37,807 bases of DNA. Origin: Elusimicrobiota bacterium (GTDB taxonomy: Bacteria; Elusimicrobiota; Elusimicrobia; 2-02-FULL-39-32). Shown piece after piece: positions 21,322-32,154 of the stretch (position 1 is its first letter; each line of letters begins with the position of its first letter). Location of the stretch: NCBI GenBank assembly GCA_021730935.1, contig JAKFYJ010000014.1, positions 1-37,807 of the forward strand, read 5' to 3'. The notes under the pieces are model-generated. The model did no database searches. It saw only the letters and a list, made by a program, of their open reading frames with translations, and was not told the origin of the DNA. Position numbers and translations under genes: made by a program.

Positions 21322-21588
21322 ATGCCCAAGAAATCCCCATGGTTTGTTTATCTCCTCAAATGCCGCGACGGTTCTCTTTATACCGGCATCACCACAGACC
21401 TCAAACGCCGGATGAAACAGCATTCCCAGGGCAAAGCGTCAAAATATACCCGAGCGAAGCTCCCGATCAAATGCGTTTATAACGAACCCCAACCTGATGA
21501 GAGTTCCGCAAAAAAACGCGAATGCGAAATCAAATCCTGGCCGAGAGATAAGAAGAGAAAGTTAATTGGAAAAAAGAAATTAGTTTGA
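21322..21588 (+). CDS. GIY-YIG nuclease-domain protein (UPF0213/YhbQ-like)
   Basis: The 88-aa protein consists of a single GIY-YIG domain: [24 protein letters not shown] in two parts (VYLLKC and YTGIT correspond to the GIY and YIG strands), the conserved Arg in LKRRMKQH, and the catalytic Glu region [11 protein letters not shown]. Small stand-alone members act on DNA ends or unusual structures; the role is not firmly known. It starts 2 bp after the ATPase stop, and its end overlaps the end of the convergent cysA by 9 bp. Confidence 0.9.
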
Positions 21589-22620
21589 GCGGAAAGCGTG
21601 GAAATCGGTGATGCCGATATACACCTGGGACGATTCGCGGAAACCGCTGGCCAGGGCCACGCCTTTGGGGACGAGAGCTGTGATTGATTTTTGTTCGCCG
21701 ATGTCCAGAGTCAATTCAATGAGCGGCCCTCTGAAACGCATCTTGGAAATTTTTCCCTTCACCTGAAGCGTTTCCGGATTTGAGCTGACATAGACGTCGT
21801 TCGGGCGAAAATAAATTCGAATTTTGTCGCCCAACTTAAATCCGTTGACGGAAAATTTGAAAGGTCCCCAGCAGACCAGCTCCGGCTCGCAGAGGTCCGA
21901 CTCGATATAGTTCGTTTCCCCCACAAACTGCGCCACAAAATGAGTCGCGGGTTTGTCGAAAATTTCCAAAGCCGTCCCTTCCTGCTCGATCGCGCCTTTG
22001 TTCATCACCAATATGCTGTCGGCAATCTCAAGCGCTTCGTGCTGGTCATGCGTCACAAAAAGCGTGGTCACTTCCGTTTCTTCGTGGAGACGCGTGATCC
22101 AGGCGCGGAGCTCATCGCGAACTTTCGCGTCGAGCGCGCCAAAAGGCTCATCCAAAAGCAGAACGCGGGGACGCGGAGCCAAAGCTCTTGCCAATGCCAC
22201 GCGCTGTCTTTGTCCGCCGGAAAGCTGGGACGGAAATCTTTTCCCGAGCCCGTTCAGCTGAATCAACTTCAGGAGCTCAGAAACTCTCTGGTCAATTAAA
22301 TCTTTGGGCATCTTGCGGACTTTGAGGCCGAAGGCGATGTTTTGCTCAACCGTCATGTGCTTGAAAAGCGCATAGTGCTGAAAAACGAACCCGACATTCC
22401 TGTCACGCGCGGAAAGAAACGTCGCTTCCTCTCCGGTGAGCTTCACGTCGCCGGAATCCGGGGTTTCAAGGCCGGCAATGATTCTCAAAAGAGTGCTTTT
22501 CCCTGAACCGCTCGGCCCAAGGATCGCGACAAGAGACCCCGTCTCCACTTGAAAACTGACATCACGGACGGCGGTGAAATTGTTAAATTTTTTGGTTAAG
22601 TGCGAAACTTCAATGCTCAT
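21580..22620 (-). CDS. cysA: sulfate/thiosulfate ABC transporter ATP-binding protein
   Basis: The 346-aa ATPase powers sulfate import. It shows Walker [10 protein letters not shown] (35-43), the Q-loop near QHYALF, signature LSGGQ (133-137), Walker B LLLDEP (154-159) and an H-loop in VTHDQHEA. The C-terminal TOBE-like regulatory part (about 240-346) has YFRPNDVYV as in CysA. It is the last gene of the porin-sbp-cysT-cysW-cysA operon and starts at an ATG overlapping the cysW stop (ATGA). Confidence 0.95.
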
Positions 22621-23495
22621 CCGTTATCTTCCGTCCAGTGGCTTTCTGCCAGTTCTCTGTCCTTTCTCCATTCGACCAGACTCTTTGCCGCGAGCGTCAC
22701 CAAAGCCAGCAGGGCCAGGATGGACGCGACAGCGAAAGCCGCGACATAATTATACTCATTGTAGAGAATTTCCACATGGAGGGGAATGGTGTTGGTGAGC
22801 CCGCGGATGTGTCCTGAGACGACAGAAACGGCCCCAAATTCCCCCATCGCGCGCGCGTTGGTGAGAATCACGCCATAAAGCAGTCCCCACTTGATGTTGG
22901 GGAGCGTCACATGCCAGAAAGTCTGCCAGCCGCTTGCGCCCAAAACCACAGACGCTTCTTCCTCGTCGGTCCCTTGCGCCTGCATCAAAGGAATCAATTC
23001 CCGGGCCACGAAGGGAAACGTCACAAAAACCGTGGCCAAAACAATTCCGGGGATCGCGAAAATAATTTTCAGATTATGCTCGTCCAGCCAGGGGCCCAAA
23101 AAGCCCTGCAGTCCGAAAAGCAAAACATAAATGAGACCGGAAACCACGGGAGACACGGCAAAGGGAAGATCAATCAATGTGATCAAAACATTCCTGCCGA
23201 AAAAATCAAATTTGCCGATAGCCCAGGCCGCAGCCAAACCGAAAAGAACATTCGCGCAAACGGAGATTCCGGCCGTGGTCAAGGTCAGCTTGATTGCAGA
23301 AATCGCGTCCGGGTCCTTCAAAGCTTGAGAATATGTTCCCAGACCCTTTTCCAACGCGCGGACGAAAACAGAAACAAGCGGAATGAATAAAAAAAGACCT
23401 AAAAAAATGAGGGCCGCGGAAATCAAGATCCAGCGGACCCATGCGGGTTCTGTGACGGCCAAATTCGGTTTCGTCCTGGGGTTATTGGAGGACAT
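22617..23495 (-). CDS. cysW: sulfate ABC transporter permease CysW
   Basis: This 292-aa permease subunit has about six membrane helices and the EAA-type coupling motif [22 protein letters not shown], which contacts Cys[17 protein letters not shown] and [12 protein letters not shown] are CysW-specific. I chose the ATG at 23495 because GGAG lies 9 nt upstream; an ATG at 23510 is possible. It overlaps cysT by 14 bp and cysA by 4 bp, so the genes are tightly co-translated. Confidence 0.94.
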
Positions 23496-24411
23496 AACTG
23501 GTTTCTCCATGGTCAGGCGCGTTTCTCCGTCGGCTCCACCATTGGAGGAGGTTGATCGACAACAGCAAAGCAAAAGAAATCACGAGCATGACGAGGGCGA
23601 TGGCCGTGGCTCCGAGATAATCATACTGTTCCAATTTGGTGACGATCAAAAGTGTGGTGATCTCCGTTTTCATGGGCATGTTGCCGGAAATAAAAATCAC
23701 TGAACCGTATTCTCCGATGGCGCGGGCAAAAGCAAGCGTGAACCCCGTGAGCAATGCGGGCCAGATGCTGGGCAAAATCACCGTCCGGAATGTTCGCCAC
23801 CGGCTCGCCCCCAAACTCACGGCGGCTTCTTCTTCCCCCCGGTCCATTTCTTCCAGCACCGGCTGAACGGTCCGCACGACGAAAGGGAGACCGATGAATG
23901 TGAGCGCCACCAAAACTCCCAGCGGCGTGAACGCCACCTTGATTCCAACTTTCGCCAGGACGCTCCCGATCCAGCCCGTCTGCGTATAAAGATCCGTGAG
24001 AGCGATGCCCGCGACCGCCGTTGGAAGAGCGAAAGGAAGGTCAACCAAAGCGTCCACAATCCGTTTGCCTGGAAACTGATACCGAACCAAAACCCAGGCA
24101 ACCAAGAGACCGAAAACTGCGTTGATGAGGGCCCCCGCCAGAGACATCCCGAACGACAATCGATAAGAGGCCATCACCCTCGGATCAGTCACGATTTTCC
24201 AAAACTCTGAAAAGCTCAGCTGAGAGGTTCGGATAAAAATGCCCGCAAGCGGGACGAGCACGATGAGGGTCACATAAATCAATGTGAACCCCATCGTGAG
24301 CCCGAAACCCGGAATGACGCTGTATTTCTTAAGGCTTGTAGATTTGATCGAAAACTCCCCCGTCTGAAAAATGTTTCTTCTGCGCGCTCTGCCAGCCGCC
24401 GAAAACTTCAT
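23482..24411 (-). CDS. cysT: sulfate ABC transporter permease CysT (start uncertain)
   Basis: This permease has the CysT hallmarks [26 protein letters not shown], the coupling motif [22 protein letters not shown], and [12 protein letters not shown]. The start is problematic. The conserved N-terminus begins right at the sbp stop (24329), but no ATG, GTG or TTG lies in frame there. The nearest in-frame ATG codons are 24411, 83 bp inside sbp, and 24294, which would cut off the conserved PGFGLT. A non-standard ATT or ATC start near 24330 is possible. The coordinate given is the outer ATG. Confidence 0.85.
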
Positions 24412-25339
24412 CAATCGTGAAAAGTTTTATGTCGGGGAATTTCACTTCCGCGCTCGCTAAAGCCGTTTTATCAACGGGCCGATAATAATTCTTGACGGCG
24501 ATCTTCTGGCCTTCCGGAGTGTATAAATATTCCAGATAGGCCTTTGCGATCGCTTCGGTCCCGTGCTTTTTAGCGACTTTCTCGACGACAGCCACGGGCG
24601 GCTCCGCCAGAATGCTGACAGACGGCGCCACGATTTCAAACTGGCCTTCCCCCAACTCTTTCACAGCCAGGAACGCTTCATTTTCCCAGGCGATCAAAAC
24701 ATCTCCGATGCCGCGCTGTGCAAAAGTCGTGGTCGCTCCGCGCGCGCCGGAATCCAGCACGGGCACATTTTTATAAAGCTGACCCACAAACTCTTTGGCG
24801 TGAGATTCGTTGACAAACTTTTTCAATGCGTATCCCCACGCCGCGAGATAATTCCATCTCGCTCCGCCTGAAGTTTTGGGGTTCGGCGTGATCACGGAAA
24901 CTCCGGGCTTGATGAGGTCTCCCCAATCCTTGATGCCTTTGGGGTTTCCTTTGCGAACCACGAAAAGGATCGTGGAAGTATAGGGCGTGCTGTTGTGCGG
25001 AAGTTTCTTCTGCCAGTCCGCAGGAAGCAGTTTGGATTTCTCGGCGATCGCGTCGATGTCATAGGCGAGGGCCAGAGTCACCACATCGGCTTCAAGTCCG
25101 TCGATGACGGAGCGCGCCTGTTTGCCTGAGCCGCCGTGAGATTGCTGGATCGTCACATCCTGCCCGCTCTTGGTTTTCCAATAAGCCGCGAAGGCCTTGT
25201 TAAAATCCTGATACAGCTCGCGCGTCGGATCATAGGACACATTGAGCAAGGTCAGTTTGTCTTTGGCCTGCGCCTGAACTCCTGAAATGAGCACGGAAAC
25301 AGCCGCAACGGCTATGATAAAAAGTTTATTGAGGTTCAT
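24329..25339 (-). CDS. sbp: periplasmic sulfate-binding protein
   Basis: The 336-aa product has a signal peptide (cleavage near VQAQA-KD) and the Sbp/CysP signatures. These are [20 protein letters not shown] at the mature N-terminus, [26 protein letters not shown] around the ligand site, and [19 protein letters not shown]. It captures sulfate in the periplasm for CysTWA. It follows the porin gene by 24 bp with a typical ribosome-binding site, and its 3' end overlaps the coding frame of cysT. Confidence 0.96.
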
Positions 25340-25363: not shown

Positions 25364-26704
25364 TTAGAACGCAACCTGAAACCGCGTGATGACGACTTTC
25401 TCCGTTTCGCGGTCTTTCCCGCCGGTCGCGCCGTTCAGGAAACTGGTTTCTTCATAGTTCGCGGCGATCTTGAACGCCTTGTTCAGATACCAGTTTATTC
25501 CAGCGGCCCAGGCCTGTGCCAAGCTTGCAGAAGTCGCCTTGCTCGCGAAAGCGTTCCTCGCGCTGAAAGCGTCCTGATCAATCTTCAGCTCGCCATATCG
25601 TCCGGCAATTTCCCATGCACCCCACTGACCCGCCTTGGGCTCGAAAGGTTTTTTCGGGGAGACGCCTTTGAAGGTTGCTTTGTCGTTGGTGAGGAGGATG
25701 GATGCAGAAACCTGCCACGACTCATGGGAGATGTTGTCCAGAATGTTGGCGCGGCGGACTTCCTGAGAAGAAACGGCATATTCGGAAAGAAGGCCGAAGC
25801 GGTTCACATAATAATAGAGCTGAGGAGAAATGCGCGAGCGTGTTCCGTCTGCGGTCACATTGGCGGCATAACTGAAAAAGGTCGCCTGGCCTGTGGTGCG
25901 ATAAGACGGCAGCGCGCCCACGAAAGTTCCATAAGTTCCGCCCACGCCCACGCCGAAATCGCGGAGCCAATCGGAATAAGCATTCTTAAATGGAAGCGCG
26001 AAAATTCTTGCCGCGGTCTCTTTGGTGTCGTTGGTGTCCGTGTCCAGAGATCCGCCGTCGGTCACACCGTCAAAAATGGCGAGAGCATAGCTGAGAGTTC
26101 CGCCGGCAATGTCTCCGTGGATCTGGAGCCCCACATCGCGGTTGGGAACCAGAGCGGTGGGCAAACCCGCTTCGACGAAACGGGTCACGGGGTCTGACTG
26201 AAGCCGTTCGAGGCCCACAGGAGACTTAAATTTTCCGGCACGGATCTTAAAATAAGGCAGGGGATGATAATCCAAATATCCGTCTTGGAGGACTGCGGTG
26301 CCGCCGCCGAAATCCGGCACGATGACCGCGTCAAAATCTCCGGAAAGCGTCGCGTCCGCGATGGGCCGCACGCGCCTCAAGAGGACCGTGTTCGTGAGAG
26401 GAACCCTCTGGTCATCCAAATAAAACCGAGCGTCCGCCTGCACAACCCCGCGCAGCCTGAATGAAAACTTCCCGTCGCCGGACTTGATAGCGATGCCGTC
26501 CGGATTCGCCTGAACGGAAGCTCCGGTCTTCTTTTTCTCTTCCGCCGCTTCCGCGTCCAGCTCCAATTTTCTTTCCAGCACTTTTATTTTCTGGTCCAGC
26601 GTTTCAAGCGAAACCGCAGGATCTTCCGCGCGCCCAACTGCCGTTCCAAACACTCCTGATCCCACCACTGCGCCTGCGATTAACAGCCATTTTATCTTGT
26701 TCAC
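25364..26704 (-). CDS. OprO/OprP-like outer-membrane anion porin
   Basis: The 446-aa product begins at a GTG with GGAGA 7 nt upstream. It has a signal peptide (ending VGRA-ED), a short coiled-coil with SLETLDQKIKVLERKLEL that would trimerise, and a 16-strand-type barrel of the Porin_O_P family (GKFSFRLRGVVQADARFY, DYHPLPYFKIRAGKFKSPVGLERLQS). The chain ends in a C-terminal Phe. OprP-type porins select anions such as phosphate. The position as first structural gene of the sulfate operon suggests sulfate or another sulfur anion; that is inferred from context. Confidence 0.88.
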   Translation of the reverse strand: MNKIKWLLIAGAVVGSGVFGTAVGRAEDPAVSLETLDQKIKVLERKLELDAEAAEEKKKTGASVQANPDGIAIKSGDGKFSFRLRGVVQADARFYLDDQRVPLTNTVLLRRVRPIADATLSGDFDAVIVPDFGGGTAVLQDGYLDYHPLPYFKIRAGKFKSPVGLERLQSDPVTRFVEAGLPTALVPNRDVGLQIHGDIAGGTLSYALAIFDGVTDGGSLDTDTNDTKETAARIFALPFKNAYSDWLRDFGVGVGGTYGTFVGALPSYRTTGQATFFSYAANVTADGTRSRISPQLYYYVNRFGLLSEYAVSSQEVRRANILDNISHESWQVSASILLTNDKATFKGVSPKKPFEPKAGQWGAWEIAGRYGELKIDQDAFSARNAFASKATSASLAQAWAAGINWYLNKAFKIAANYEETSFLNGATGGKDRETEKVVITRFQVAF

Positions 26705-26760: not shown

Positions 26761-26794
26761 AAAAAAACCCACTGTCCGTTTTGGAAGTGGGTTT
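26761..26794 (-). terminator. intrinsic terminator in the leader of the sulfate operon
   Basis: On the minus strand AAACCCACT (26794-26786) pairs perfectly with AGTGGGTTT (26773-26765), with further TCC/GGA pairing inside. It is followed by a run of seven T. It sits between the leader peptide and the porin gene, 57 bp before the porin start, so it acts before the structural genes and must be bypassed for expression. Confidence 0.85.
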
Positions 26795-26818
26795 GCTTTA
26801 TTTTTTACTGCCTGATGA

Positions 26819-26869
26819 TTACAAAGCGGTGTCGCCCTCTCCCAAAGAGAAGTTGCACATACACATCAT
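26819..26869 (-). CDS. Met/Cys-rich leader peptide of the sulfate operon
   Basis: The 16-residue open frame MMCMCNFSLGEGDTAL runs from ATG 26869 to TAA 26819. It lies about 30 nt after the predicted transcription start and 24 bp before the terminator. Its first five codons are all for sulfur amino acids (Met, Met, Cys, Met, Cys). This is the classic layout of ribosome-mediated attenuation, where stalling on scarce charged tRNA prevents terminator formation. The weak ribosome-binding site GCGAG precedes the ATG. An alternative antiterminator pairing was not found by eye. Confidence 0.7.
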   Translation of the reverse strand: MMCMCNFSLGEGDTAL

Positions 26870-26902
26870 CTCGCAGCAATTTATTTTAAGCATTATCTCG
26901 AC

Positions 26903-26930
26903 ATGATATCAAAAATAAAAATCTTGTCAA
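26903..26930 (-). promoter_or_regulatory. promoter of the sulfate uptake operon
   Basis: On the minus strand TTGACA (26930-26925) and TATCAT (26908-26903) have a 16-bp AT-rich spacer. The predicted start near 26896 leaves a leader of about 190 nt holding the leader peptide and terminator. Confidence 0.7.
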
Positions 26931-26950: not shown

Positions 26951-27604
26951 TTATCTGAGTTCGAACTGGATTGGGAGGGTTACTTTGCACGCAACAGGCT
27001 GTCCGTCGGAATTATAGGCCGGGGAGAAAACGGCTTCGCGGACTTTTCGGAGAGCGGCTTCGTTGAGAGCGCCATAGCTTCCCTGCAAAAGCCGAGCGTC
27101 CTGCACGCGGCCTTCGGAATCGATCCATACGGAAATGACCACGCGGCCGTCTTTGCCTTCTTGTCTTGCAACAGCGGGATAATCCTGAGGAGCGATGAAG
27201 TTTTTTATCCATCTGGGCTTCCGCGCCGCCTGCGAGGCGGGAATAAAAACCCCTCCAGCAATGCCCGCTCCGTTTTGAGGACAAGGGTCTGCGCAAGGGA
27301 CCTCTTGATTTTCTTGCTTCAAGACTTCTTCTTTGGTTTCCTGAACGGGAACTGGAGAAGGGAGAGGAGCGTTACCCTTTTTGGGGAGCGTCCAGGATTC
27401 CGCGGGCTTAAAGCTTCGATGACCTCCCTGATTGACTGCCGCTGAAACCAACGGAGCCATGGACAAATCCAGTTCTGCGATGATCGGCGCGCCCTTTCGG
27501 GAGGCGAATCCTAAATAAGCTGAGCCGGCCATCGCCGCATGAATGACGCAAGACGCGAGCATCCCCATTCCTGTTCCGCCGATGATTTTATCCGTCCTTG
27601 TCAT
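26951..27604 (-). CDS. tonB: TonB energy transducer
   Basis: The 217-aa product starts at ATG 27604, 1 bp after the exbD stop; a longer frame inside exbD was rejected. It has an N-terminal membrane anchor (about 8-38), a periplasmic spacer with Pro, Glu and Lys (PLPSPVPVQETKEEV), and a C-terminal TonB domain (about 140-217) with YPAVARQEGKDGRVVISVWIDSEGRVQDARLLQGSYGA split over the strands and GQPVACKVTLPIQFEL at the end. It transmits inner-membrane energy to the TonB-dependent receptor encoded upstream in the same operon. Confidence 0.93.
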   Translation of the reverse strand: MTRTDKIIGGTGMGMLASCVIHAAMAGSAYLGFASRKGAPIIAELDLSMAPLVSAAVNQGGHRSFKPAESWTLPKKGNAPLPSPVPVQETKEEVLKQENQEVPCADPCPQNGAGIAGGVFIPASQAARKPRWIKNFIAPQDYPAVARQEGKDGRVVISVWIDSEGRVQDARLLQGSYGALNEAALRKVREAVFSPAYNSDGQPVACKVTLPIQFELR

Positions 27605-27605
27605 T

Positions 27606-28007
27606 TCACCGCTCCGCCGCAAGGGCGACGCGCGTGACGCCTGACTGCTTGATCGCGTCCAACACGGAAACGATTTGACGATAAGGCAAAGAGCCGTCCG
27701 CCGCGAGAGTCACTCTCACTCCGGGGTTAAGTTTCGACTCGCGGTTCAGGTTCGCTTTGAGCCCGTTCACGTCGATCTCATTATCCAAAAGCCGCAACTT
27801 CCCTCCCGCATCCAGCGTCACAGTCAGCGATGCCGTCACGGATGCTTCTCCTGCGGCCGCCTTGGGCAGGTTTATTTTTATTCCGCTGTCCGAAACGAAA
27901 TGCGCCGTCACCATAAAGATGATGAGGAGGACCAGCATGATGTCCACCAGAGGGGTAACATTGATCCCTGTGACCGTTCCGTCCAGTTCTGAATCTGAAT
28001 GAGCCAT
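27606..28007 (-). CDS. exbD: ExbD/TolR biopolymer transport protein
   Basis: The 133-aa product has the single N-terminal helix with the essential Asp in NVTPLVDIMLVLLIIFMV, which carries protons in ExbD/TolR motors. A periplasmic domain with the LAADGSLPYRQIVSVLDAIKQSG motif follows. It forms the ExbB-ExbD proton motor that powers TonB. It lies between exbB (12 bp) and tonB (1 bp). Confidence 0.94.
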   Translation of the reverse strand: MAHSDSELDGTVTGINVTPLVDIMLVLLIIFMVTAHFVSDSGIKINLPKAAAGEASVTASLTVTLDAGGKLRLLDNEIDVNGLKANLNRESKLNPGVRVTLAADGSLPYRQIVSVLDAIKQSGVTRVALAAER

Positions 28008-28019
28008 ATTTCCCCTGCT

Positions 28020-28676
28020 TTATGAAATGGATGGGCTGGCCATGCGAGGTTCGAGGCGCTGGCCTTCCGGGACATGAGCTTGGACCCTGTCGATCAAACT
28101 GCTGCAGTTCGACGCGATCCTCCGCAACCGCGAATGAAAATAATTATTGGCGGCAACCGCAGGAATAGCGACGAAGATGCCAAAAGCCGTCGCGATGAGC
28201 GCGGACGATATCCCGGACATCACAACGGAAACCCCTGAAGCGCCGCTCATGGCAAGATCGTTGAAAGCCTTGATGATTCCAAGCACCGTGCCGAAAAGCC
28301 CAATGAACGGCGCATTGTTCCCCAAAGTGCCCAAGACGATCAAATTTTTTTCCAAACGGGCGCGCTCCATCGTGAGAGTTGCGGTCATTGTTTTCTCCAT
28401 GGCCTTCAGCCCATTGGAATGGTTGGAAAGGCCGGCCAAAACGACGCGAGATTCCGCGCTGTCATGAGAACGGGCCAGGGTTCGGGCGCCGGAAAAATCG
28501 CCCGCTTCAAGTCTGTGAACCAGCTGATCAGAGAATTCACCGAAATGCAGCCGATTGGAACGGAACGCGAGCCACCGCTCGATCATAACGCCGATGGAAA
28601 CCACGCTCGCAACGACCAGAATCCAAAGCACCCAGACATCTCCGACCAGGGCTAGTTTCTTAAAAATTTCATTCAT
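28020..28676 (-). CDS. exbB: ExbB/TolQ proton channel protein
   Basis: The 218-aa product starts at ATG 28676, with GGAGA upstream, overlapping the PepSY gene end by 8 bp. It has three membrane helices, including the conserved LGTLGNNAPFIGLFGTVLGIIKAF and SSALIATAFGIFVAIPAVAANNYF segments of MotA/TolQ/ExbB channels. It pairs with ExbD to harness the proton gradient for TonB. Confidence 0.95.
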   Translation of the reverse strand: MNEIFKKLALVGDVWVLWILVVASVVSIGVMIERWLAFRSNRLHFGEFSDQLVHRLEAGDFSGARTLARSHDSAESRVVLAGLSNHSNGLKAMEKTMTATLTMERARLEKNLIVLGTLGNNAPFIGLFGTVLGIIKAFNDLAMSGASGVSVVMSGISSALIATAFGIFVAIPAVAANNYFHSRLRRIASNCSSLIDRVQAHVPEGQRLEPRMASPSIS

Positions 28677-29967
28677 GTTTATTCTCCAATTGACGCGCAA
28701 ATATTTTCGAAGCGATCCCCTCGATGAGAAGGACTGCGACCAGAGAAATTCCTGCGATGGGCACCATCACGCAAAAAAGCGCGATGAGCGCGACGAGGGA
28801 AATGGGAAGCTTGCTGTCCGAAGGCGCCTTTGGAGCCGCAAGGAGCGAACCTCTCGGGCGGCGTTTCCACCACAAAACAATTCCGGTCAAAGCCAGCCCC
28901 AAAACGCCCAGGGCCACGAGGCTGTTGAGGACCTGGTTCCAGATGCCGAACCAGGTGCCTTCGTGCAGGGCCACGGCCATCAGAACAAATTTTCCGATGA
29001 CGCCGAAATCTTTCCAGCGGTAATCCGCCAAAACTTTTCCGCTATAGATGTCCACATGGATATAAGCGCGGTCCTGGGGCCGGGGCGCTTTCCAGCGGAT
29101 CACTGCGGCGCCGCCCGGGTCTTTGGGCAGAGTGATTTGAGGTTTCGCGCCCGGAAGCTGCTCCTTTGAAATTGCGTCCAGCACATCCAGCGGCACGGGG
29201 TTCCGGCCTTCTGCCGATTCGGACTTGAAAGGCGAAGAACCGAACCCCGGAGGCGATCCTGTTCCCGTGGCGTTGGCGAAGTTGGAGAGCATCTTCCCCG
29301 TGATCCCGGTCCACGGGACCCCCGTGACCAGGAAAAGGAGGATCAGGATGGAAAGATAAAACGCAGGGACAGCGTGAATATCCTTCCACCATGAGCGCCC
29401 GGAGATATTCAGTCTCGGCCAAAAAACTCCTCCGAAACTTTTGTCTTTCGGCCACCACAGAAAAAGCCCGGTTGCAACCAGGATGAAAGCCCAACCTGCC
29501 GTCAGTTCCATGATGATTTCGCCGGGTTTTCCGATGAGCAATGAACCGTGGATGTCGTGGGCCAACTGCATCAGGGTCCTGTCAGAACGCTGGCTCCCAA
29601 CCAGTTCACCCGTGTGCGGGTTCACATAAACCGCCGTCGGTTCTCCGGTTTTTGTCTTGAGGAAAACCTGCATGGATTTGCCAGGGCCCGGGCTCGTGAT
29701 TACATATTGCAGTTTCGCGCCGGGAAACTCTTTCAATGCCGCGTCCAGTTGGGACTGAGCGGACACCTGCTGAGCAGAAGCAGGGACTTCGAGCCAACGC
29801 CGATAAAGCGCGGGTTCCGCCTGGGGCTTGAAGAGATAGATCAGTCCCGTGACGGCAAGGGTTGCCAGAGTCGGGCTCAGAAAAAGGCCGGCGAAGAAAT
29901 GCCACCGCCATATCCGAGGATATGACGGCGGCATCGTTTCAGCGGTTTGAATCGTGTTATCATTCAT
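28669..29967 (-). CDS. PepSY-associated TM protein, putative metal-siderophore reductase
   Basis: The 432-aa inner-membrane protein has four main helices in the PepSY_TM arrangement: RIWRWHFFAGLFLSPTLAT with paired His in the first helix, LAHDIHGSLLIG, KDIHAVPAFYLSILILLFLVTGVPW, and the last pair VALHEGTWFGIWNQ and LTGIVLWWKRRP. These His residues likely hold heme. Similar proteins next to TonB-dependent receptors reduce ferric siderophores or assist metal release. It starts at the ATG whose first bases overlap the receptor stop by 1 bp. Confidence 0.88.
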   Translation of the reverse strand: MNDNTIQTAETMPPSYPRIWRWHFFAGLFLSPTLATLAVTGLIYLFKPQAEPALYRRWLEVPASAQQVSAQSQLDAALKEFPGAKLQYVITSPGPGKSMQVFLKTKTGEPTAVYVNPHTGELVGSQRSDRTLMQLAHDIHGSLLIGKPGEIIMELTAGWAFILVATGLFLWWPKDKSFGGVFWPRLNISGRSWWKDIHAVPAFYLSILILLFLVTGVPWTGITGKMLSNFANATGTGSPPGFGSSPFKSESAEGRNPVPLDVLDAISKEQLPGAKPQITLPKDPGGAAVIRWKAPRPQDRAYIHVDIYSGKVLADYRWKDFGVIGKFVLMAVALHEGTWFGIWNQVLNSLVALGVLGLALTGIVLWWKRRPRGSLLAAPKAPSDSKLPISLVALIALFCVMVPIAGISLVAVLLIEGIASKIFARQLENKHE

Positions 29968-32099
29968 TAGAATGAGATTTTAACTCCGGCATTGAACGAC
30001 AGAGGCTGGCCCGCGAAAAAAGCCTGCTTCGTGGAAGACAGGCTCGAGAGAGTGTCCGTCGTCGCGTCCGCCACCACGACCGCGGAGCCGATGTATTTTT
30101 GGTCGAACACGTTGCGGACGTCGGAGAACAAGGTGATTTTGCTCACCCATCCCCATTTCACTTCTTTCGTGTAATGCACATTGAGGTTGAACAAGGTTGA
30201 GGCGGGAACCTCAAGCGTATTATTGTTGTTGATGTAATACGGCTCGATGCGCACCAGCTCAATCCACCCGCCCGTGCGGCCTGCAGTTTCATATCCAAGA
30301 CGGGAATTGATCACATGCCTTTCCACGCCGGGGACCTGTTTGCCAGAACGGTCCAGAGTCACAACGGATGACCCGGAACCGATGGACTCCATGAATTCCT
30401 TATAAACATGATCGTTGAACGAATACGAAACGCTTGTGAACAGCCCTTTCCAGGGATTGAAGTCGAGTGAAGCTTCCACTCCGCGGTGTTCCGCACGGGG
30501 CGCGTTGCTGGTGAAGCTCGAAAGCCCTGAGGCAGGGGACTGGGTCACATATTCATCATAGAAAAATTCGTAATATCCTGTAATGTCGAATTTGAGCCTA
30601 TCAAAAACCTTTCCGTTGGAACCCAGCTCAAACCCCAAATTCCTCTGAGCGTCAAGGCTGGTGTTGTTGCCGGTGATGCCGGCAGGCGTGGTCGTGAGCT
30701 GGCTGATGCTGGGTGTCCCGTAAGCCATGCCGACGCGGCCGTGGAATTTGAGATCTTGTCTGGGAGAATAAATGAGGCTCCCTTCGGGCGCGGTGTTGAA
30801 GAACCTTCTGTCAGCGCTCACCCTCGAATATGTTTCCGATGCGGTGCGGGTCTGGACATCCGCTCTGATAAGCGAAGATTCCACGCCCAGCCCGGCAATG
30901 GCGGTCCAACGGTCGTTGAAGGCAAGTTCTTCGCGGATCCTTCCGCCCACATTCTGATGATATCCCCGCGTGTTGGATTGCAGAGCGCCCCGCGTCCCGT
31001 TATAGTCCGCAAGGTTTCTGTATCCTGACGCCTCCTGTTCCATGTAGTTGAAAAACATCCCGGCATAATGTTTCGCCGAAATCCCTGCGATCGCGTTCTC
31101 GTGAGTGACGTCCATGCTCTGCTGGAAGTTCGGATTAATATTGTCGCCGATCGTCCCGAAAGTCTGGTTGATGTCCTTGACGTCATATTCGCCCATAAAC
31201 CTGAAACCCGTTTGCGGAGAAACAGCATATTCATAACGGCCGCCGATGATGGTGCGCCGGTCGTCTCTCTGCTGCTGCGTGCGGTCCGCGGAAACATTTC
31301 CGATGCCGGTCACGTTCGTGATCCCCTGGGTGCTGGGGTTCTGGTTAAATTGGTCCAGCGTGAGCCTGCTCGGGACATCGGCCTTGAGGTCGTTGTTCAG
31401 ATATTTGAATATGAAAGTCCGCTTCTGGTCCGGCGTGAAGCTGAGGGTGATGTTTTCTGTGACGGTTCGGAAAACGCTGTGGTCGATGTATCCGTCGCCG
31501 CGGACATAGCTCACGAAAGCGGAATATTCGAAATGGTCATATCGGTTTCCCGCGTGAACGTAATTGTTGGAATATCCGAAACTGCCTGCATCCGCGCCGA
31601 CGTCGACGCCATGGATGTCCCGGCCTTTACGCGAGCGAAAATTGATCACGCCGCCCTGGGCGTAATTGTCATAAAGTGAAGACGACGGCCCGCGGATCGC
31701 GTCCACGCCTTCGTAAGCGTTGGGATCGTGCAAGTCTGTCCGGGAAAGCCCGTCCGACTGAGTCACGGGGAACCAGTCCTCATACATCTTGATGTTCCGC
31801 ACTCCGAACCCGACTTTCCCTCCTGAACCGCGGAGCGAAATCGTGGCGTCTCTCGGGCCGTTGGACTGCCGCGCCGTCACGCCCGGCAAAGTGATCAGAA
31901 GATCTCTCAGAGTGAACGCGTCCGTGCTTTCCAATTTGTTCCTCTCGAGTTTCCCGATGGTCCTGCCCGCCGGGTTATGCTCGATCCTGCTCCCCAAAAC
32001 GACGATGGGTTCCATCTGAATGGCGTCCGCGTCGCTTTGCGCCGCAAAGACGTTTCCTGCCTGCAACAATAAAACTGCCGTCAATAAAAACGAAATCAT
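29967..32099 (-). CDS. TonB-dependent outer-membrane receptor
   Basis: The 710-aa product starts at ATG 32099, with AAGGAGG 6 nt upstream. It has a signal peptide (ending NVFA-AQ) and a TonB-box-like MEPIVVLG near the mature start. The plug domain is LRDLLITLPGVTARQSNGPRDATISLRGSG, DAIRGPSSSLYDNYAQGGVINFRS (each read in parts), and a 22-strand-type barrel ending in LSFNAGVKISF. It lacks the N-terminal signalling domain of FecA-type regulators. The plug resembles ferric-siderophore receptors, but the upstream His/Cys-rich protein leaves copper or another metal open. No clear Fur box was found. Confidence 0.93.
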   Translation of the reverse strand: MISFLLTAVLLLQAGNVFAAQSDADAIQMEPIVVLGSRIEHNPAGRTIGKLERNKLESTDAFTLRDLLITLPGVTARQSNGPRDATISLRGSGGKVGFGVRNIKMYEDWFPVTQSDGLSRTDLHDPNAYEGVDAIRGPSSSLYDNYAQGGVINFRSRKGRDIHGVDVGADAGSFGYSNNYVHAGNRYDHFEYSAFVSYVRGDGYIDHSVFRTVTENITLSFTPDQKRTFIFKYLNNDLKADVPSRLTLDQFNQNPSTQGITNVTGIGNVSADRTQQQRDDRRTIIGGRYEYAVSPQTGFRFMGEYDVKDINQTFGTIGDNINPNFQQSMDVTHENAIAGISAKHYAGMFFNYMEQEASGYRNLADYNGTRGALQSNTRGYHQNVGGRIREELAFNDRWTAIAGLGVESSLIRADVQTRTASETYSRVSADRRFFNTAPEGSLIYSPRQDLKFHGRVGMAYGTPSISQLTTTPAGITGNNTSLDAQRNLGFELGSNGKVFDRLKFDITGYYEFFYDEYVTQSPASGLSSFTSNAPRAEHRGVEASLDFNPWKGLFTSVSYSFNDHVYKEFMESIGSGSSVVTLDRSGKQVPGVERHVINSRLGYETAGRTGGWIELVRIEPYYINNNNTLEVPASTLFNLNVHYTKEVKWGWVSKITLFSDVRNVFDQKYIGSAVVVADATTDTLSSLSSTKQAFFAGQPLSFNAGVKISF

Positions 32100-32130
32100 G
32101 TATCCTCCTTGACCTGTGAAAATAAAGCCA

Positions 32131-32154
32131 AACAAAAACAGCGTCTGCTGTTTT
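32131..32154 (-). terminator. hairpin between the His/Cys-rich gene and the receptor gene
   Basis: AAAACAGC and GCTGTTTT pair perfectly around a 4-nt loop (32135-32154). On the minus strand the stem is followed by a T-rich TGTTTGG. It could partly terminate transcription after the small gene and lower receptor expression. Confidence 0.45.

Follow-up and report, generated by a model that had tools for sequence, protein, structure and literature searches.

A Met/Cys leader peptide and intrinsic terminator as a putative transcription attenuator of a sulfate uptake operon in Elusimicrobia

Cys-run leaders without terminators have been previously reported upstream of actinobacterial cys operons (Seliverstov 2005, PMC1262725), mycobacterial Cys uORFs have been ribosome-profiled (Shell 2015, PMC4633059), and experimental cysteine-responsive attenuation has been described in Mycobacterium smegmatis (Canestrari 2020, doi 10.1111/mmi.14498, as cited in PMC9094748, PMC9031893, and PMC13236596). 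In Rhodobacterales, uORFC-8-2 upstream of cysS contains tandem Cys codons and has an intrinsic terminator behind it, and ribosome stalling has been predicted to result in readthrough (PMC8632094). The leaderless metL, which precedes metNIQ in Streptomyces lividans, encodes the sequence ...RCMCRRMCAF (PMC8079986). Cys leader attenuators are already known, and the locus described here stands out by its unusual interleaved Met/Cys code and by a new target, sulfate import. Published precedents include Cys-run leaders of cys genes, the terminator-bearing Cys leader of cysS, and the leaderless Cys/Met leader of metNIQ, so the original prediction claimed too much novelty. A literature search with thin coverage of subscription journals returned no Cys/Met leader combined with an intrinsic terminator on a sulfate transport operon, which is weak evidence of absence.

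We analyzed a stretch of 37,807 nucleotides from an Elusimicrobiota bacterium (assembly GCA_021730935.1, contig JAKFYJ010000014.1; hereafter the window), in which a short frame opening Met-Met-Cys-Met-Cys had been proposed to lie between a promoter and a porin-sbp-cysTWA operon. Such a leader is indeed present on the minus strand, and it very likely acts by ribosome-mediated transcription attenuation, with charged tRNA-Cys and/or tRNA-Met as the signal and the porin and sulfate ABC transporter genes under its control, a reading built on the sequence and computed folding of two examples. The operon, also on the minus strand, starts with an outer-membrane porin gene (Porin_O_P, 25364-26704, start GTG at 26704; Pfam PF07396, E 1.1e-27), followed by sbp for the sulfate-binding protein (24329-25339; NCBIfam NF008022, E 1.3e-159, TIGR00971), the sulfate permease genes cysT (23482-24414; TIGR02139, E 7.8e-130) and cysW (22617-23573; TIGR02140, E 8.3e-122), and the sulfate ABC ATPase gene cysA (21580-22620; TIGR00968, E 2.5e-112). 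Sbp, CysT, CysW, and CysA are sulfate-specific according to curated sulfate-transport models. Upstream of the leader, a tonB-like gene on the same strand ends at 26951; it is the first, encoding a TonB C-terminal protein, of a TonB-system cluster that adjoins the operon (26951-32135, minus strand), the rest of which reads as ExbD-like, ExbB-like, PepSY-type, and TonB-dependent receptor genes.

A sigma-70-type promoter (26903-26930, minus strand) with 11 of 12 consensus matches consists of TTGACA (26930-26925), a 16-bp spacer, and TATCAT (26908-26903). Only one relative was found to carry the leader, namely Elusimicrobia bacterium RIFCSPLOWO2_01_FULL_54_10 of the same genus (G001), where TTGACA-TATAAT occupies the equivalent position (locus L010). 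The 16-codon frame of the original prediction, MMCMCNFSLGEGDTAL*, does read as stated from the ATG at 26869 to the TAA at 26819; nevertheless, it is the 3' part of a longer ORF of 24 codons, MLKINCCEMMCMCNFSLGEGDTAL*, running from the ATG at 26893 to the same stop (26819-26893, minus strand). The true leader is probably this longer frame, because the ORF of the relative, MNANKYQMMMCMCSRSAGEGFIAL*, also has 24 codons and aligns with it without gaps, start and stop included. The leader ATG lies 9 nt past the -10 hexamer, and with a transcript start estimated from this hexamer at about 26896 the AUG would be some 3 nt from the predicted 5' end, so that the mRNA would be nearly leaderless. No Shine-Dalgarno sequence is visible at the leader ORF, which counts against an attenuator, and translation would depend on the near-leaderless AUG. 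The putative regulatory codons ATG ATG TGT ATG TGC (26855-26869, minus strand) are beyond chance and unique in the genome: when the intergenic region was dinucleotide-shuffled 20,000 times, no short frame with five Met/Cys codons in a row arose, a scan of both strands over 140 kb from the window and relatives showed such runs in the window leader and its counterpart in the relative only, and ATGTGYATGTGY occurs once in the 2.7-Mb genome. Cys-Met-Cys is found in both leaders and Cys-Cys in the window leader only. It is this codon content that points to a dependence on Cys or Met supply.

The predicted strong hairpin with seven T past the leader stop was located at 26793-26761 (minus strand), where 25 bases separate the stop from AACCCACTTCC-AAAAC-GGACAGTGGGTTTTTTT (stem 26793-26766, seven T at 26767-26761). 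This intrinsic terminator, AACCCACTTCC-AAAAC-GGACAGTGGGTT, retains 25 of its 27 stem-loop bases in the relative and has a probability of 0.99 in the complete leader; a simple terminator scanner did not list the hairpin, probably because of its one-base bulge. The fold of leader and terminator together gave z = -5.25. Two mutually exclusive sets of pairings can be formed upstream of the terminator 3' arm (all on the minus strand). In the protector fold, region 1 (CUUCUCU, 26846-26852) pairs in the ribosome-free minimum free energy structure with region 2 (UUUGGGAGAGGG, 26835-26846, within the ORF), this CUUCUCU:GGGAGAGG helix being nested inside GAUGAU:AUCAUC, which joins 26870-26865 over the Met codons to the GCUUUGUAAUCAUCAG block across the stop codon (26812-26827; 16 of 16 bases the same in the relative). 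In the antiterminator fold, region 2 pairs instead with region 3 (CCCACUUCCAAA, 26780-26791), which comprises the terminator 5' arm CCCACUUCC and the loop, with 11 pairs and one mismatch, and GCUUUGU (26827-26821) pairs with AUAAAGC. The core of this antiterminator, GGGAGAGGG with CCCACUUCC, is fully conserved, and together with the conserved codons and hairpin it supports the his/trp-style attenuation logic originally suggested.

When Cys and Met are plentiful, the ribosome would reach the UAA at 26819 and cover or unpair region 2, leaving the terminator (3:4) to form and transcription to stop ahead of the porin gene. When either amino acid is short, the ribosome would stall on Met-Met-Cys-Met-Cys with its leading edge over region 1, region 2 would pair with the emerging terminator 5' arm in CCCACUUCCAAA, and polymerase would continue into the sulfate-uptake genes. 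If the frame is not translated, the window leader is expected to fold into the protector and terminate. Sulfate uptake would thereby be switched on when sulfur amino acids run short. In the manner of his/trp-type attenuators, the locus has a promoter-proximal short ORF before an uptake operon, a run of end-product codons beyond chance with coding-level conservation in one relative, and an intrinsic terminator between the ORF and the first gene.

These states were examined with a cotranscriptional model in which the transcript was folded up to the terminator 3' arm and the probability that the 5' arm is paired upstream was recorded. For the window leader this probability was 0.00 when ribosome-free and 0.05 once a ribosome had reached the stop, but 0.88 if the ribosome was held at the last Cys codon, a contrast reached by none of 600 shuffles; the same procedure applied to E. 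coli trpL gave 0.07 (0.33 with the 5' end trimmed) for the ribosome-free, 0.62 for the stalled, and 0.15 for the stop state, matched by 7 of 600 shuffles. In this computed folding, the antiterminator excludes the terminator and is freed by a stall at the regulatory codons. The leader of the relative behaved similarly when stalled (0.89) and at the stop (0.15; 5/600 shuffles), but its untranslated state was unprotected (0.86), which counts against the attenuator reading; according to the model, protection without translation is not conserved there, and basal control would therefore differ. The window result also depends on the progress of polymerase, since a transcript ending with the last base of region 3, as used in the first antiterminator shuffle test, gave a weak value of 0.09 and one extended to the loop, which adds AAA pairing with UUU, gave 0.88. 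In the complete transcript the terminator was always favored (0.97-0.99), as it was for trpL in the same calculation, and therefore antitermination must be kinetic, taking place before the 3' arm emerges.

The window leader resembles trpL in its short ORF, its tandem regulatory codons, its set of three hairpins (protector, antiterminator, and terminator), and the same three-state computed profile, whereas it differs in its Met/Cys instead of Trp codons, its near-leaderless AUG, and the position of region 2 inside the ORF. There is no sequence relation between the two (Rfam Trp_leader E 0.5, far below threshold), and neither Trp_leader, Thr_leader, nor the SAM classes of Rfam matched the window leader at gathering, the best leader matches being far below threshold. 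With its Cys codons and predicted near-leaderless AUG it recalls the polycysteine ORFs of mycobacteria, short leaderless frames upstream of sulfur-assimilation operons for which a cysteine response has been proposed or shown; their control, however, is described as translation attenuation, with no intrinsic terminator and no Met codons noted. Terminator-free control of translation initiation of the mycobacterial type does not fit the window leader, which has a strong intrinsic terminator. uORFC-8-2 is similar in being a uORF with tandem Cys codons and an intrinsic terminator after it, but its target is a cysteinyl-tRNA synthetase in alphaproteobacteria, its structure is different, and no Met run is described. 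In Streptomyces, the leaderless metL peptide also mixes Cys and Met codons and stands upstream of genes for the uptake of a sulfur amino acid, but these encode a methionine importer, and no typical Rho-independent terminator was found there. Known cases of Cys/Met leader attenuation come from Actinobacteria and Rhodobacterales; the attenuator proposed here would add sulfate import in Elusimicrobia, which have very few cultured members.

Comparison with the relative suggests which parts of the leader are maintained. The Met-Met-Cys-Met-Cys codons retain 13 of 15 bases, and the two differences are both silent TGT/TGC swaps at the wobble position, indicating that MMCMC is held as codons. In contrast, GGGAGAGGG is probably held as RNA because its first base is the third position of a codon whose amino acid is not the same in the two leaders; it is identical at 9 of 9 positions although the adjacent codons differ. 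The stop-codon block GCTTTGTAATCATCAG is identical at all 16 positions, and the spacers between conserved blocks agree at only 6/21, 5/11, 2/7, and 8/17 positions, while the sequence ahead of the promoter and that beyond the terminator align no better than shuffled ones. Judging from this pattern, the conserved blocks are those that an attenuator would need, and the intervening and outer DNA has drifted. In the relative, leader, promoter, and terminator stand directly before sbp without a porin gene, and the sulfate operon is flanked by a divergent cysM-type gene and cysH (L010, 118-6864). In the window genome the sulfate operon lies behind the porin gene, with cysH and the cysM-type gene adjoining each other elsewhere, on contig C28. 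These differing neighbors indicate that the sulfate operon moved or was inserted after the two genomes diverged.

Strong terminators commonly separate tandem genes, and with the tonB-like gene upstream on the same strand the hairpin might be a constitutive terminator of the upstream transcript, or a pause site, next to a coincidental Met/Cys frame. This is hardly likely, considering that the leader is separated from the tonB stop by a conserved, near-consensus promoter and that the Met/Cys run and its coding-level conservation would be unexpected. It is also quite improbable that the leader senses something else, such as a metal, by way of the side chains of Met and Cys, or a small molecule, by way of a riboswitch not yet catalogued, with the codons mattering only as peptide or RNA. 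Soft metals could be bound by MMCMC, and RNA structure accounts for much of the conserved sequence; nonetheless, the operon serves sulfate rather than a metal, no Rfam family was found at the gathering threshold and nothing credible at a relaxed one, and ribosome position alone explains the computed switching.

A ribosome-mediated attenuator might, however, sense cysteine alone, with the Met codons mainly there for the pairing of ATGATG with AUCAUC at the stop. This is a serious, though less than even, possibility: the GAUGAU:AUCAUC pairing is kept in both genomes, published cys operon leaders have been read as Cys sensors (PMC1262725, PMC4633059, PMC8632094), and a polyCys leader before a cysK-type gene in another member of the class (G011, below) has CCC and no Met run. 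On the other hand, the ATG between the Cys codons (TGY ATG TGY) is kept although it lies outside that pairing, and a similar CMCRRMC is carried by Streptomyces metL. We tentatively consider that the interleaved codons form a dual sensor responding to a shortage of either amino acid, which is possible but somewhat doubtful. If true, sulfate uptake would be set by total sulfur status through transcription attenuation alone, a mode for which the literature searched offers no example on a sulfate transport operon, and the locus would be a compact test case of two-amino-acid sensing in one leader.

A pattern scan for MMCMC followed by GGNGARGG in 84,980 species genomes gave 12 matches (about 6 expected by our own base-count estimate), among which the Elusimicrobia relative was the sole leader, the remaining ones looking like chance by frame and context. 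A covariance model built from the two leaders recovered both sources among 336 genomes of the phylum (E 1e-31 to 1e-33), and no convincing Met/Cys leader was seen among 28 further loci examined in its tail (E above 1e-4). The sbp gene itself is rare in the phylum, with 9 matches in 341 genomes (E at most 1e-60); among G001, G003, G004, G013, G020, G032, and G185, only G001 has a Met/Cys leader upstream of it. Two of these genomes, G003 and G004, belong to the same family and have sbp without the leader, and in G002 of that family (73% complete) neither such a leader nor sbp was found, both of which count against the attenuator reading. In G004 (L012, 5203-5300, minus strand), about 30 bases before sbp and beside a gidA-like gene, stands GTGGGTTTTTTTAT, which is the same as the 3' half of the window terminator and might be either what remains of a lost leader or a chance match. 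No leader was detected in the cysH-cysM region of the window's own genome. Genome-wide, polyCys tracts occur at control level.

Among the upstream regions of cysK-type genes in the class, a family search revealed a polyCys leader, MKNKALSHFAVFQHPCCCRYGSKGALLFE, in G011, from another family (f4); 29 other cysK loci were scanned and had no such leader. An intrinsic terminator and then a second terminator-like hairpin come after the G011 leader (L050, 1270-1420), and the gene immediately downstream is of the cysK/cystathionine beta-synthase type. This leader is unrelated to that of the window, counts in favor of the attenuator reading, and is a candidate for a second Cys attenuator in Elusimicrobia, suggesting that attenuators of this sort have evolved repeatedly and escape notice because of their small size and poor conservation. 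The 5' arm of its terminator can pair with GGGCG inside the leader ORF.
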